Part shown: positions 13,012 to 16,611 of the stretch, piece after piece
Numbering within the stretch: the first letter of the stretch is position 1
Layout of the letters: every line of letters starts with the position of its first letter
Source: Acidobacteriota bacterium
GTDB lineage: Bacteria; Acidobacteriota; Terriglobia; Terriglobales; Acidobacteriaceae
NCBI GenBank assembly: GCA_021793405.1
Contig: JAJYSV010000024.1
Location: 1-53,361 of the forward strand
Direction of reading: 5' to 3'
DNA: 53,361 nucleotides
Notes under the pieces: generated by a model
Told to the model about the DNA's origin: nothing
Seen by the model: only the letters and a program-made list of their open reading frames with translations
The model's database searches: none
Translations under genes and position numbers: made by a program

Positions 13012-13041
13012 TTGACGCGCGATTCGATCGACATATATAAT
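13012..13041 (+). promoter_or_regulatory. Sigma-70-type promoter of the sulfite reductase/siroheme operon
   Basis: TTGACG (13012-13017) and a perfect TATAAT (13036-13041) are separated by 18 bp. Transcription should begin about 13047-13050, three to six bases before the leader-peptide ATG at 13053. The leader peptide would therefore be translated with almost no 5' UTR. This is among the best promoter matches in the window. It occupies the gap between the divergent alpha/alpha-barrel gene and the nirA operon; I see nothing else in 12807-13011. Confidence 0.7.
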
Positions 13042-13052
13042 AAGCCGCAGCT

Positions 13053-13139
13053 ATGAACCTGCCTGTCTCGACGATGTGTTGTATGTGCTGCATGTGTACC
13101 ATGCGGGCACATTCGCGCATCTTCTGGAGGGTTGGGTAG
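13053..13139 (+). CDS. Cysteine-rich leader peptide of the nirA-sirC-cobA operon
   Basis: A 28-codon reading frame whose residues 8-15 read MCCMCCMC: Cys codons at 13077-13082, 13086-13091 and 13095-13097, five in total. It begins just after the predicted transcription start, ends with TAG at 13137-13139, and is followed 36 bp later by a strong intrinsic terminator, ahead of a sulfite/nitrite reductase. This is the arrangement of an attenuation leader peptide that senses charged Cys-tRNA. Leaderless polycysteine peptides controlling cysteine genes are known in mycobacteria; I know of none described in this phylum. No Shine-Dalgarno sequence is visible, consistent with leaderless initiation. 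The protein product itself probably has no function. Confidence 0.75.
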   Translation: MNLPVSTMCCMCCMCTMRAHSRIFWRVG

Positions 13140-13186
13140 AGTCAAAAGCTGAAAAAGCTTGCAGTAGCCCAAAGCAAAAACCCACC
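13129..13186 (+). promoter_or_regulatory. Candidate antiterminator pairing of the Cys attenuator
   Basis: GGTTGGGT (13130-13137), the last codons and stop of the leader peptide, can pair with ACCCACC (13180-13186), the 5' arm of the terminator, with one bulged T. A ribosome stalled on the Cys codons leaves 13130-13137 free, so the terminator arm can be captured; a ribosome that reaches the stop codon covers it. A competing local pairing, TTGGGT (13132-13137) with GCCCAA (13167-13172), encloses a small AAGCT/AGCTT hairpin (13146-13160). No energies were calculated. Confidence 0.5.
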
Positions 13187-13214
13187 GCGGAAGAGCCGCT
13201 CAGGTGGGTTTTTT
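13176..13214 (+). terminator. Intrinsic terminator acting as attenuator before nirA
   Basis: The 5' arm is five A's plus CCCACC (13176-13186), the 3' arm is GGTGGG plus T's (13203-13213), making an 11-bp stem. An inner 4-bp stem GCGG/CCGC (13187-13190 with 13196-13199) closes an AAGAG loop, with a three-base bulge. A T-run ends at 13214. It lies inside the 5' region of an operon rather than at its end, as expected for an attenuator. The A/T arms could also make it work on the opposite strand. Confidence 0.85.
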
Positions 13215-13272: not shown

Positions 13273-13434
13273 ATGACACAAAATCTTTATAAAGAGAAAT
13301 GCGATGAGCTTCCCGCCTCCAGCACGGAAGGGCGGCCATCCATCTCATTGAGCCATCGCGACATACTGGCACGCGGCATTCCTATATTCAACAACAGCGC
13401 ATCTACCGCCAACGCATCACAGGATGGACAATGA
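13273..13434 (+). CDS. Small hypothetical protein coupled to nirA
   Basis: A 53-residue reading frame (MTQNLYKEKCDELPASS... ending NASQDGQ). I recognise no family and no membrane segment or signal. Two things argue for a real gene: its TGA overlaps the nirA ATG as ATGA, and CAGGA lies seven bases before its ATG. It sits between the attenuator terminator and nirA, so it would be made only on read-through. Against it, the composition is low in conserved-looking motifs and the overlap could be chance. Confidence 0.42.
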   Translation: MTQNLYKEKCDELPASSTEGRPSISLSHRDILARGIPIFNNSASTANASQDGQ

Positions 13435-15161
13435 CAGGACCAATGACAGCGCCGACAGCGAATCCGACAATAGTAAAAGAAACATCAGCCCAACGGATGG
13501 AGCGCCTTAAGCGCCAGAAAAATCCATGGGAAGCCTTCGATGAAGTGCGAGCATTCGCCCGCCAGGGGCGCAGCAGCGTAGTGCCGGACTGGGCCTCCGC
13601 GTACTTCAAGTGGTGGGGCATCTACACCCAGGGAGATGGCGTTGGCGTCACCGGCGGGAAGGGTGGCGAAGGAAAAATGACGGACTACTTCATGATGCGG
13701 ATTGGCGTGCCGAATGGAATCCTTGACTCCCGCCAGCTTCGCACCATTGCGGAGCTGACCCGGCAGCACGCACGCAACCTTGCCGATATCACTGTCCGGC
13801 AGAACATTCAGCTGCACTGGCTCACCATTGAGTCGTTGCCGGAGATCGTCGACGCGCTGGATCGCGTCGGACTCTCTCCCAAGGGCGCGTGCGGCGATGT
13901 CTCCCGCAACGTCACTGGATGTCCGCTGGCTGGCATCGCCGCCGATGAAATTGCGGATGCGTCTCCATTGGCGCTCGGTTTGGCCCACATGCTGACGGCC
14001 AACCCAGAGTTCTATAACTTGCCGCGCAAATTCAAAGTGTCCATTGCCGGCTGCCGGCACTGGTGCACCTATCCTGAGATCAACGAAATTGGCTTGACCG
14101 CGATCGAGCGCAAGTCTGGCGGCGGAGTTGAGGTCGGCTATTCCATCCGCGTGGGAGGAGGACTTTCCAACCAGCCGCATCTGGGAGTTCGCCTGAACGC
14201 ATTCCTGCGACTGGATCAGGTCTTACCCGTCGTTCACGCCGTTACGGAATTGTTCCGCGACCAGGAGGTGCTGCGCGAGAGCCGCGAACGTGCCCGCTTG
14301 AAATATCTTTTTCTCCGTGAGGGGTGGGATGGGGAGCGATTTCTAGCGGAGGTCGAAGCCCGGCTGGGATATCGCCTCGATCCTGCTGTGGAAGAGCGCT
14401 TGCCGGAAGATATTTTTCGCGATCACGTTGGCATCCATCGGCAGAAGCAGGAGGGGCTCAGCTATGTAGGCGCATCGGTCCTGCGCGGCAGGCTTAGCGG
14501 CGATCAACTGATGGCCGTGGCCGAGTTGTCCGAACGGTTCGGCACAGGGGATGTGCGTTTGACCGTGATGCAGAATTTTCTGTTGATCAATATTCCTAAT
14601 GCGAAAGCAAATGAACTGGCGAGGGAACTGGAAGCGATTGAGCTTCGCGTGGAGGGGTCCAATTTCTGGCGCGGCGCCATTGCTTGCACCGGCACGGAAT
14701 TTTGCAAGCTCGCCATCACCGAGACAAAAGGATTCACGCGGTGGCTGGTCGAAGAGATGGAACAGCGTGTTCCTCAATTTGACCAGCAACTCAAGCTGAA
14801 TGTCACAGGTTGCCCCAACGGTTGCGGCCAACACTGGATTGCCGACATCGGCATCGAGGGCAAGAAGATCAAGTATGAAGGAAAAATGGTAGATGCCTAT
14901 TATTTCTGCCTGGGCGGTGCTGTCGGACTGCATCAAAGAACAGCCCGCCTGGTTGGCTACCGCTGCGCGGCGATAGAAGTTCCCGAGGCCATGGAGCGGC
15001 TATTGCGCCAATACCTTGCCGGTCGCGACGATGGAGAGAATCTGCGCAGCTACTTTGCCCGCCATAGCGATGCCGAACTGCGCGATCAGCTGGCAGGCAC
15101 TGTGTTCGAATCGGTGGCGCGCGATATTTCTCCCGGAGACGTTCCCTACGCGGCGGACTGA
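13431..15161 (+). CDS. nirA: Ferredoxin-dependent sulfite/nitrite reductase (siroheme, 4Fe-4S)
   Basis: A 576-residue cytoplasmic enzyme reducing sulfite to sulfide or nitrite to ammonia by six electrons. The two ferrite-like repeats are visible, with the siroheme/substrate-binding segment GDVSRNVTGCPLAG (about 155-168). The cluster ligands are complete as C-x5-C (Cys419, Cys425 in ACTGTEFC) and C-x3-C (Cys461, Cys465 in TGCPNGCGQ). AGGATGG lies before the ATG; a second ATG three codons later is possible. Sequence alone does not separate sulfite from nitrite reductase. The upstream cysteine-rich leader favours sulfite and assimilation. Two siroheme biosynthesis genes follow in the same operon. 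Confidence 0.92.
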   Translation: MTGPMTAPTANPTIVKETSAQRMERLKRQKNPWEAFDEVRAFARQGRSSVVPDWASAYFKWWGIYTQGDGVGVTGGKGGEGKMTDYFMMRIGVPNGILDSRQLRTIAELTRQHARNLADITVRQNIQLHWLTIESLPEIVDALDRVGLSPKGACGDVSRNVTGCPLAGIAADEIADASPLALGLAHMLTANPEFYNLPRKFKVSIAGCRHWCTYPEINEIGLTAIERKSGGGVEVGYSIRVGGGLSNQPHLGVRLNAFLRLDQVLPVVHAVTELFRDQEVLRESRERARLKYLFLREGWDGERFLAEVEARLGYRLDPAVEERLPEDIFRDHVGIHRQKQEGLSYVGASVLRGRLSGDQLMAVAELSERFGTGDVRLTVMQNFLLINIPNAKANELARELEAIELRVEGSNFWRGAIACTGTEFCKLAITETKGFTRWLVEEMEQRVPQFDQQLKLNVTGCPNGCGQHWIADIGIEGKKIKYEGKMVDAYYFCLGGAVGLHQRTARLVGYRCAAIEVPEAMERLLRQYLAGRDDGENLRSYFARHSDAELRDQLAGTVFESVARDISPGDVPYAAD

Positions 15162-15187: not shown

Positions 15188-15820
15188 ATGAATCTTTTGC
15201 CGATATTTTTGAAGCTGGAGCGCAGAGCTTGCCTGGTTGTGGGCGCCGGTAATGTCGCGTTGGAGAAAATATCCAGCCTGCTACATGCAGATGCATCACT
15301 CCGCGTGGTGGCTCCGGCCGCGTGTGAAGAAGTTGAGCGACTCGCGGCGGCGGGCAAGATTGTGTTGACACGTCGGGAGTTCCAGGAGTCCGACCTGGAA
15401 GGACAATTTCTCGTTGTCACAGCGACCAATTCCCGCGTCGTGAATCGTTCCGTGTACCTGGCTGCGCAACAACGCGGGCTGCTATGCAATTCAGTCGACG
15501 ATCCACCGAACTGTGACTATTACTTTTCCTCGGTTGTGCAACGAGGAAAGTTACAAATTGCCATTTCGACGGCTGGAGAGAGTCCGGCGTTGGCTCAGCA
15601 GTTGAGGCAGGATATCGATGCCCAGTTACCGCAGGATACTGCGGCGTGGCTCGATGAACTCGGCAGTCTAAGGCGAGAGATTCTGGCGACGCATCCTGCC
15701 GGGAATGAACGGAAAGCCCTGCTGCATTCACTGGCGCAACGTTCGCTGTGTGCCCTGGACGAATGCCCATCTCGAAAACTTGCCTTCCCAAAAAATTCAC
15801 TTCAGGAGCATACGCGATGA
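15188..15820 (+). CDS. sirC: Precorrin-2 dehydrogenase / sirohydrochlorin ferrochelatase-type protein
   Basis: A 210-residue single-domain member of the Met8p/CysG N-terminal family. It oxidises precorrin-2 to sirohydrochlorin with NAD and may insert iron to give siroheme. The Rossmann motif VVGAGNVALEKISSLL comes early (about 17-32), followed by FLVVTATNSRVVN and the conserved LQIAISTAGESPALAQQLR segment. AGGAG precedes the ATG. The methyltransferase half is a separate gene (cobA) that overlaps the stop as ATGA, unlike enteric CysG where both are fused. No separate SirB ferrochelatase is in the window. Confidence 0.9.
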   Translation: MNLLPIFLKLERRACLVVGAGNVALEKISSLLHADASLRVVAPAACEEVERLAAAGKIVLTRREFQESDLEGQFLVVTATNSRVVNRSVYLAAQQRGLLCNSVDDPPNCDYYFSSVVQRGKLQIAISTAGESPALAQQLRQDIDAQLPQDTAAWLDELGSLRREILATHPAGNERKALLHSLAQRSLCALDECPSRKLAFPKNSLQEHTR

Positions 15821-16611
15821 CGACAGCACGGAAAGGCACCGTTTATCTAGTAGGCGCGGGTCCCGGCGACCCGGAATTGTTGACCCTGAAGGCGGCCGAC
15901 TTGTTGGCGACCGCGGATGTGGTCCTGCATGACGATTTGGTTCCCCAGGCGATTCTCGACCGCGCTGGTACTCAGACACGGGTGGTGAGCGTGGGGAAAC
16001 GTTGCGGCAGCCGTCGCATCACGCAGGAGCAGATTCATGCGCTGATGATTATGGAAGCTCGGCGCGGGTCCAGCGTGGTTCGATTAAAGAGCGGCGATCC
16101 GCTGATCTTTGGGCGCGCAGGCGAAGAGCTCGATGCGTTGGAAAAGGCCGAGATTCCATGCGAAATTGTCTCCGGCGTGACCTCCATGTTCGCCGCGGCG
16201 GCGGCGGCCCGGAAGTCTCTGACCGATAGACGCAGTGCATCGAAAGTAATTTTGACCACGGCGCACCACGCCTCGAACAGCAGTGGTACGGACCGGCCCT
16301 CCTTCTGGCGCGGTCCTTTGCCAAACGACGCCACGCTGGGAATCTATATGCCTGGACGGGATCTTCGCGCGCTGGCCTGGGACATGCTCCAGGGCGGGAT
16401 GCCGCCTGAACTGCCCTGCGTTGTGATGAGCCAGGTTTCCTTGCCGGGTGAGGATCGTCGAACCACCACGCTTGGCGGGCTTGGAGATGTAGTGCCGGGT
16501 CCCGCCCCGTTGCTGGTGTTGGCAGGCTGGCCCCTTGCGGATCGGCCCGAAGCTTCGTTTCCAGAGTTTGCCCAGACTGAATTCGCTCAGACTGCAGCAC
16601 GCATGGAATGA
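15817..16611 (+). CDS. cobA: Uroporphyrinogen-III C-methyltransferase
   Basis: A 264-residue SAM-dependent methyltransferase converting uroporphyrinogen III to precorrin-2, the first step toward siroheme. Motifs are GTVYLVGAGPGDPELLTLKA (about 7-26), VVRLKSGDPLIFGRAGEE, SGVTSM near the middle, and GIYMPGRDL. The ATG overlaps the sirC stop (ATGA), with AGGAG upstream in sirC; an in-frame upstream start at 15748 would lie entirely in sirC and is not used. As the last gene of the nirA operon it supplies cofactor for the reductase. Confidence 0.92.
   Translation: MTTARKGTVYLVGAGPGDPELLTLKAADLLATADVVLHDDLVPQAILDRAGTQTRVVSVGKRCGSRRITQEQIHALMIMEARRGSSVVRLKSGDPLIFGRAGEELDALEKAEIPCEIVSGVTSMFAAAAAARKSLTDRRSASKVILTTAHHASNSSGTDRPSFWRGPLPNDATLGIYMPGRDLRALAWDMLQGGMPPELPCVVMSQVSLPGEDRRTTTLGGLGDVVPGPAPLLVLAGWPLADRPEASFPEFAQTEFAQTAARME

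Follow-up and report, generated by a model that had tools for sequence, protein, structure and literature searches.

The enterobacterial trp, his and leu attenuators place a leader peptide with codons for the cognate amino acid ahead of a biosynthetic operon and follow a protector/antiterminator/terminator logic. For cysteine, polycysteine leaderless short ORFs in Mycobacterium smegmatis were reportedly studied by Canestrari and colleagues in 2020. In 2005 Seliverstov et al. had predicted Cys-run leader peptides for Mycobacterium, P. acnes and B. longum; they describe the Mycobacterium cys leaders as devoid of conserved terminator hairpins and the attenuator elements as also missing in P. acnes and B. 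longum (PMC1262725). The mycobacterial Cys-run leaders are noted again in another report (PMC4633059), and short accounts of the M. smegmatis polycysteine leader work appear in PMC9031893, PMC9094748 and PMC13236596. The uORFC-8-2 motif (PMC8632094, 2021) is described as a tandem-Cys uORF with an intrinsic terminator before cysS in Rhodobacterales, for which attenuation by Cys-tRNA was proposed. In three acidobacterial genomes, an average of 13.3% of genes were predicted to be leaderless (PMC3160421), and when attenuators were surveyed in 2010, almost none of those predicted in phyla such as Acidobacteria could be linked to a function (PMC2965389).

The window analysed here, meaning the whole 53,361-nt stretch of acidobacterial DNA, carries a short Cys-rich ORF and a terminator ahead of nirA-sirC-cobA. 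Its relatives with named records point to the phylum Acidobacteriota. The features found or predicted in this region are as follows:

13012..13041, + strand, sigma-70-type promoter TTGACG-18-TATAAT, 11 of 12 consensus positions
13053..13139, + strand, leader ORF of 28 codons, MNLPVSTMCCMCCMCTMRAHSRIFWRVG, with its ATG 11 nt past the -10 box
13061..13132, + strand, protector hairpin of the ribosome-free leader (predicted fold), the Cys codons pairing with the following leader segment
13077..13097, + strand, putative regulatory Cys codons 9, 10, 12, 13 and 15 (TGT TGT ATG TGC TGC ATG TGT)
13119..13138, + strand, candidate antiterminator left arm (segment 2), AUCUUCUGGAGGGUUGGGUA, from duplex and nascent fold
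13178..13214, + strand, intrinsic terminator, hairpin 13178-13211 and U-run 13209-13214
13179..13194, + strand, candidate antiterminator right arm (segment 3), overlapping the terminator 5' arm and loop
13273..13434, + strand, fused remnant of 162 bp, a cysD start joined to a cysH tail, from comparison with the same-genus genome G062
13431..15161, + strand, nirA, siroheme sulfite (or nitrite) reductase, PF01077 and PF03460
15188..15820, + strand, sirC-like precorrin-2 dehydrogenase (CysG N-terminal domain), TIGR01470 at 155 bits, cut-off 62
15748..16611, + strand, cobA, uroporphyrinogen-III C-methyltransferase, TIGR01469 at 221 bits, cut-off 185

The -35 box (TTGACG, 13012-13017) and the -10 box (TATAAT, 13036-13041) lie 18 nt apart, and comparable boxes and spacing are seen in relatives of this locus. 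From the promoter position, transcription would start at about 13047-13049, and the 11-nt spacing of the ATG predicts a nearly leaderless ORF, in which the Cys codons begin at 13077, 13080, 13086, 13089 and 13095. The terminator hairpin reaches -22.4 kcal/mol (z -5.7 against shuffles); absent from a simple pattern-scan list, it was found by folding and by a dedicated terminator finder. The entire leader RNA folds at -70.3 kcal/mol (z -3.85), and the duplex between 13119-13138 and 13179-13194 is worth -17.8 kcal/mol (z -2.7 against shuffles). No Rfam family scored above its gathering threshold in the window or in eight relative loci. A preliminary description of this DNA had proposed a near-consensus promoter, a 28-codon frame with five Cys codons and a stop codon, a strong intrinsic terminator after that stop and nirA-sirC-cobA behind it; all of these are present where it placed them, and the gene identities are backed by family scans. 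The pairing it drew between the leader 3' end and the terminator 5' arm was also borne out, and is longer than claimed.

The reductase obtains its best scores with NCBIfam NirA-type models, yet stays under their cut-offs. The assignment of sulfite as substrate therefore rests on operon context: the operon partners in relatives point to sulfite rather than nitrite. The true start of cobA is probably downstream of 15748. The remnant between the terminator and nirA, whose start lies about 217 nt beyond the terminator, yielded no family match of its own in the family scans. It was assigned by comparison with G062: a 305-nt stretch reaching from the leader into cysD is 79% identical at the DNA level, the cysH/nirA junction gives a 21-nt match (E 0.003), and the proteins were compared by eye. 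The fusion leaves the window's leader and nirA close together. Because a cysD start is joined here to a cysH end, the bodies of cysD, cysN and cysH have probably been deleted between the terminator and nirA, or else the assembly is wrong there.

In the same-genus genome G062 the leader, MKFPTSRMGCLCCTCNVQTQFHAFCRVGV, follows a TTGACG-18-TACAGT promoter with its ATG 11 nt past the -10 box, has a terminator resembling that of the window, and heads a full cysD-cysN-cysH-nirA operon; in G138 the leader MKFPTSRMGCLCCMCNVQTQFHAFCRVGVS precedes cysD. The genome G114 has two separate leaders, one before cysD and one before nirA. The preliminary description had named the loss of Cys codons in close relatives, with the surrounding sequence conserved, as grounds for giving up its reading; the opposite is seen, since four of the five window Cys residues are kept in two same-genus genomes (MKFPTSRMGCLCCTCNVQ..., MKFPTSRMGCLCCMCNVQ...), while 15 of the 23 non-Cys residues differ between G062 and the window by hand count. 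The window's own genome contains a second leader, MVSKLSILDCRMQCNCCCSNDACWRGCEHCR, with nine Cys, located on contig C63 (L174:1178-1273; L239) before the only full cysD-cysN-cysH set found in this genome. Its terminator is weak (-8.8 kcal/mol by the terminator finder) and its -35 poor, and it passes the relaxed rule only. Across the same genome the pattern TGYTGYNNNTGYTGY gave 71 matches, against 19 for a reversed control. The first 20 of these 71 were discarded as leaders, none having passed the anatomical detector; among the remaining matches, the window's own was the one studied.

To place the window among its relatives, nirA loci were drawn from two sources: the best 80 of 323 loci from a contig scan, and the window's family, where 112 of 150 genomes gave a match and the best 30 loci were taken together with the upstream DNA of 60 more. 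After six duplicates were dropped, 164 distinct loci remained, from which a main set of 125, nearly all Acidobacteriota, was formed; it includes L009 and L024, labelled Opitutia and Verrucomicrobia. Kept out of it were L053-L081 (26 actinobacterial, one Binatia, one Blastocatellia and one Nitrospirae), the loci labelled as other phyla (L028, L038, L039, L040, L043, L045, L047, L050 and L051), and L049 (Acidobacteriales), with upstream DNA of 77 nt only. To count as a leader, a short ORF had to hold 3 or more Cys in a stretch of 8 residues, lie no more than 450 nt ahead of the nirA match and be judged credible.

By this main rule, a Cys-rich leader adjoins nirA in 106 of the 125 loci, which are related to one another and are not independent trials; the figure follows from setting aside by hand 19 loci with no credible leader within 450 nt, and becomes 107 with L052, whose adjacent leader was missed by the first scan and found later. 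In seven more of the 125, the leader lies farther upstream or before cysD. Those of L002 (before cysD-cysN-cysH-nirA) and of L017, L026, L102 and L109 (before a YeiH-like gene and nirA) pass the detector, the genes being named by eye; the genomes of L082 and L083 have a leader before cysD, that of L083 on a different contig from nirA. In five loci (L024, L027, L088, L090, L126) a weaker leader emerges when the rule is loosened to 2 Cys in 6, which also picks up one of the 29 loci L053-L081 and, among shuffles, 2 of 318. Neither rule recovers a leader in the remaining six (L123, L128, L132, L135, L149, L161), where L123 has less than 700 nt of upstream DNA.

The anatomy around these leaders is equally recurrent. 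A terminator (at or below -9 kcal/mol, with at least 4 T among the first 6) follows 104 of the 106 leaders; when the same stretches were shuffled with dinucleotides preserved, 19 of 212 gave one. The two without a terminator by this main criterion are L005 and L021, and that of L021 was found in a later detector run. The first start codon (ATG, GTG or TTG) lies 5-12 nt past the best -10 in 96 of 106 loci (47 of 530 when the upstream stretch is shuffled under an identical rule), and the -35 begins with TTG in 103 of 106. From such spacing the 5' ends of the leader mRNAs are predicted to coincide with the start codon or to precede it by a few bases, which makes these mRNAs look leaderless.

When complete anatomy was defined as promoter, spacing, ATG, 3 of 8 residues alike and terminator, and each amino acid was tried in turn on the 125 upstream regions, Cys gave 90, followed by Ala (24), Met (11), Arg (9), Ser (9) and the others (7 or fewer). 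For Cys, the count was 0 in 1000 dinucleotide shuffles, which led us to reject chance as the origin of the anatomy, and 0 in the 29 loci L053-L081. On 51 loci totalling 451,108 bases, searched on both strands, the detector returned 37 matches, of which 35 are leaders upstream of nirA; of the other two, one is the divergent leader of L009, which precedes a YeiH-family gene, and one was put down to chance. The match MRCSCIGRCPG in L045 was not accepted as a leader and is attributed to chance.

Codon usage sets the leaders apart from the genes that they precede. UGU accounts for 383 of 596 leader Cys codons (64%; 104 loci), against 49 of 562 (9%) in nirA genes, where Cys codons are mostly UGC (91%) in genes with enough sequence. 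This preference may reflect selection for slow decoding, or a constraint imposed by RNA structure or composition. From one lineage to another, the leader sequences and the terminator arms diverge strongly. In L015, L016, L032 and similar loci, a conserved element surrounds the leader stop codon (GCTGACCTAAG...CTTAG..TCGGC), between the antiterminator arm and the terminator; it looks like a small hairpin.

What sequence comparison brings out is thus a predicted Cys-coding leader, its promoter spacing, its terminator, their conservation and their association with sulfur-assimilation operons; translation of the leader, stalling, the switch, its direction and its signal are what we infer from them. 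With considerable confidence, we read the whole as transcription attenuation mediated by the ribosome, with charged tRNA-Cys as the signal sensed. Transcription would begin only a few bases ahead of the AUG, and the near-leaderless 5' end would take up a ribosome. With ample Cys-tRNA, the ribosome would pass the Cys run, reach the stop codon and cover segment 2, whereupon the terminator would form and nirA-sirC-cobA would be off. With scarce Cys-tRNA, it would stall in the Cys run and leave segment 2 (13119-13138) free to capture segment 3 (13179-13194) before the terminator 3' arm is made, and the pairing of segments 2 and 3 would let transcription continue into the sulfite reductase and siroheme genes. 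If so, cysteine shortage would probably raise the output of sulfur-assimilation enzymes.

Folding models of the nascent RNA are consistent with such a switch to a varying degree. The terminator 5' arm is paired upstream at 0.4 or more in 98 of 104 loci with the ribosome at the first Cys, against 21 of 104 with the ribosome at the stop codon; for the window the corresponding values are 0.58 and 0.01. In 92 of 104 loci this pairing is stronger than the average for shuffled upstream sequence, the margin in the window being modest (0.58 against 0.44). At equilibrium the terminator dominates in either ribosome state, with mean P of 0.83 and 0.94 (window, 0.96 in both), and the switch would therefore have to be kinetic. 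When the segment 2 of a locus was compared with segments taken from other clusters, its own paired better in no more than 26 of 45 terminator-arm clusters, a marginal result (p 0.026). The CTGGC class, with 33 loci, shows modest covariation that falls short of significance over its 30 distinct rows. Since equilibrium folding, the cluster comparison and the weak covariation speak against a wider claim, these models support a convincing antiterminator for the window's cluster and several lineages, without establishing it as general. The attenuator reading of the preliminary description is accordingly largely right, although the antiterminator does not convince in every lineage.

Other explanations of the same arrangement were weighed against attenuation. 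As in mycobacteria, Cys stalling could alter access to, or coupling with, a downstream start, the terminator being incidental or constitutive, and accounts of M. smegmatis do describe its leaderless Cys-run ORFs as controlling downstream translation (PMC9031893, PMC13236596). We regard translational control of this kind as improbable here, given a terminator that follows 104 of 106 leaders, and stands also before cysD, cysP and YeiH-like genes, whereas the mycobacterial cys leaders are reported to be devoid of conserved terminator hairpins (PMC1262725); the window's nirA, moreover, lies some 217 nt beyond its terminator.

Even less probable is a functional Cys-rich peptide that binds metal or thiols and whose gene merely shares the operon. 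Some leaders are indeed very Cys-dense, with up to 8 in 8 residues (L120), but length and non-Cys positions vary widely among lineages, two adjacent Cys may suffice in some leaders, the codon choice is strongly UGU, and the terminator stands between the ORF and the operon. We assign the same slight probability to a terminator that sets basal expression or answers some other signal (riboswitch, T-box or protein), with an ORF that plays no role. The thermodynamic dominance of the terminator in both ribosome states would suit it; against it stand the lack of any Rfam match in the window and eight relative loci, the residue control that singles out Cys, and the Cys codons that outlast the rest of the peptide in close relatives. 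Attenuation by ribosome stalling at Cys codons is thus the reading that we carry forward.

The leaders are not confined to nirA: the targets seen comprise nirA, cysD, cysP, cobA-cysH and YeiH-like genes. Both genes for a sulfate-binding protein (cysP) above cut-off in 31 genomes (L322, L323) are preceded by a Cys leader and terminator, which stand there ahead of sulfate ABC transporter genes. On the reverse strand of L009, about 310 nt upstream of nirA, a divergent Cys leader, MQSLSCCRWCSPLRAHG, heads a YeiH-family (PF03601) gene; the record is labelled Opitutia, yet its nirA is close to acidobacterial ones. Among the best loci returned, leaders were found in 0 of 30 SulP loci and 0 of 19 YeiH-family (PF03601) loci, and a single weak match in 30 cysKM loci (L262) was taken as chance. 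Upstream of nirA in L054, an actinobacterial frame ends in MRRHVDFLRVRSAICR, which we take to resemble the single-Cys leader peptide type of Streptomyces.

Leaders also head nirA-containing cobA-cysH operons at two acidobacterial loci more distant from the window, L061 (labelled Blastocatellia) and L231 (of the same phylum); these leaders start with TTG or at a later ATG. Fifteen of the matching genomes in the phylum sample fall outside the family; 11 of them were examined farther upstream, and one (L231) yielded a leader. No leader was found close to nirA in L216-L222. In the phylum group of the L047 genome (labelled Gemmatimonadetes), 17 of 200 genomes gave a match, and a leader is present at 2 of these 17 loci by the strict rule (L351, L353) and at 5 by the relaxed rule (adding L338, L345 and L347). 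The gene after the leader in L353 is cysH-like (PF01507). Further, L342 combines a Cys run with a terminator but shows no clear promoter, and the frames of L337 and L340 are very rich in Cys, their terminators being poor according to the terminator finder. With such gemmatimonadote leaders upstream of nirA or cysH, the Cys-leader logic probably extends to a second phylum, Gemmatimonadota.

A literature search, made mostly outside subscription journals, found no description of a cysteine attenuator in Acidobacteriota or Gemmatimonadota; the principle is known, the setting is new, and the combination of features was not found described. More tentatively, and with a confidence that stops a little short of an even chance, we suggest a widespread, perhaps ancient cysteine-attenuation regulon of near-leaderless polycysteine leaders and terminators in at least Acidobacteriota and Gemmatimonadota, where the AUG at the 5' end and UGU codons read by wobble would have been selected for fast loading and stalling against a strong terminator. 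If true, this regulon would govern sulfate uptake, activation and reduction together with siroheme synthesis, and mycobacteria would share its leaderless logic with a different output. An acidobacterial attenuator now has a clear candidate signal, target and anatomy, found at most sampled nirA loci of the window's family. The combination of a terminator with a leader rich in Cys may also help annotation, as a marker of sulfur-assimilation operons. The arrangement unites the leaderless polycysteine ORFs of mycobacteria with the terminator-coupled Cys codons of Rhodobacterales cysS, and this union of two separately known features prompts the question whether attenuation benefits from a leaderless start, and whether attenuation by cysteine evolved more than once.

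Compared with the trp, his and leu attenuators, the leaders described here share cognate codons and a terminator before a biosynthetic operon, and differ in the amino acid, cysteine, in their near-leaderless start and in an antiterminator that is not demonstrated in every lineage. With the mycobacterial leaders they have in common a short ORF, runs of Cys codons, a place at the head of cysteine or sulfur operons and a Cys supply that would be read by ribosome speed. The mycobacterial ORFs are leaderless; for the acidobacterial ones a very short 5' leader is predicted (start 5-12 nt past the -10). A terminator follows nearly every acidobacterial leader, unlike the mycobacterial cys leaders, which are reported to lack a conserved terminator hairpin (PMC1262725). 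The acidobacterial leaders may thus work like the mycobacterial polycysteine family, yet we do not file them with it. Tandem Cys codons and a terminator with a U-run they share with uORFC-8-2, which is reported only before cysS in Rhodobacterales, with two Cys usually at positions 14-15 (PMC8632094); here, by contrast, the leaders head sulfate-assimilation and siroheme operons, in other phyla, and their Cys runs are often longer.
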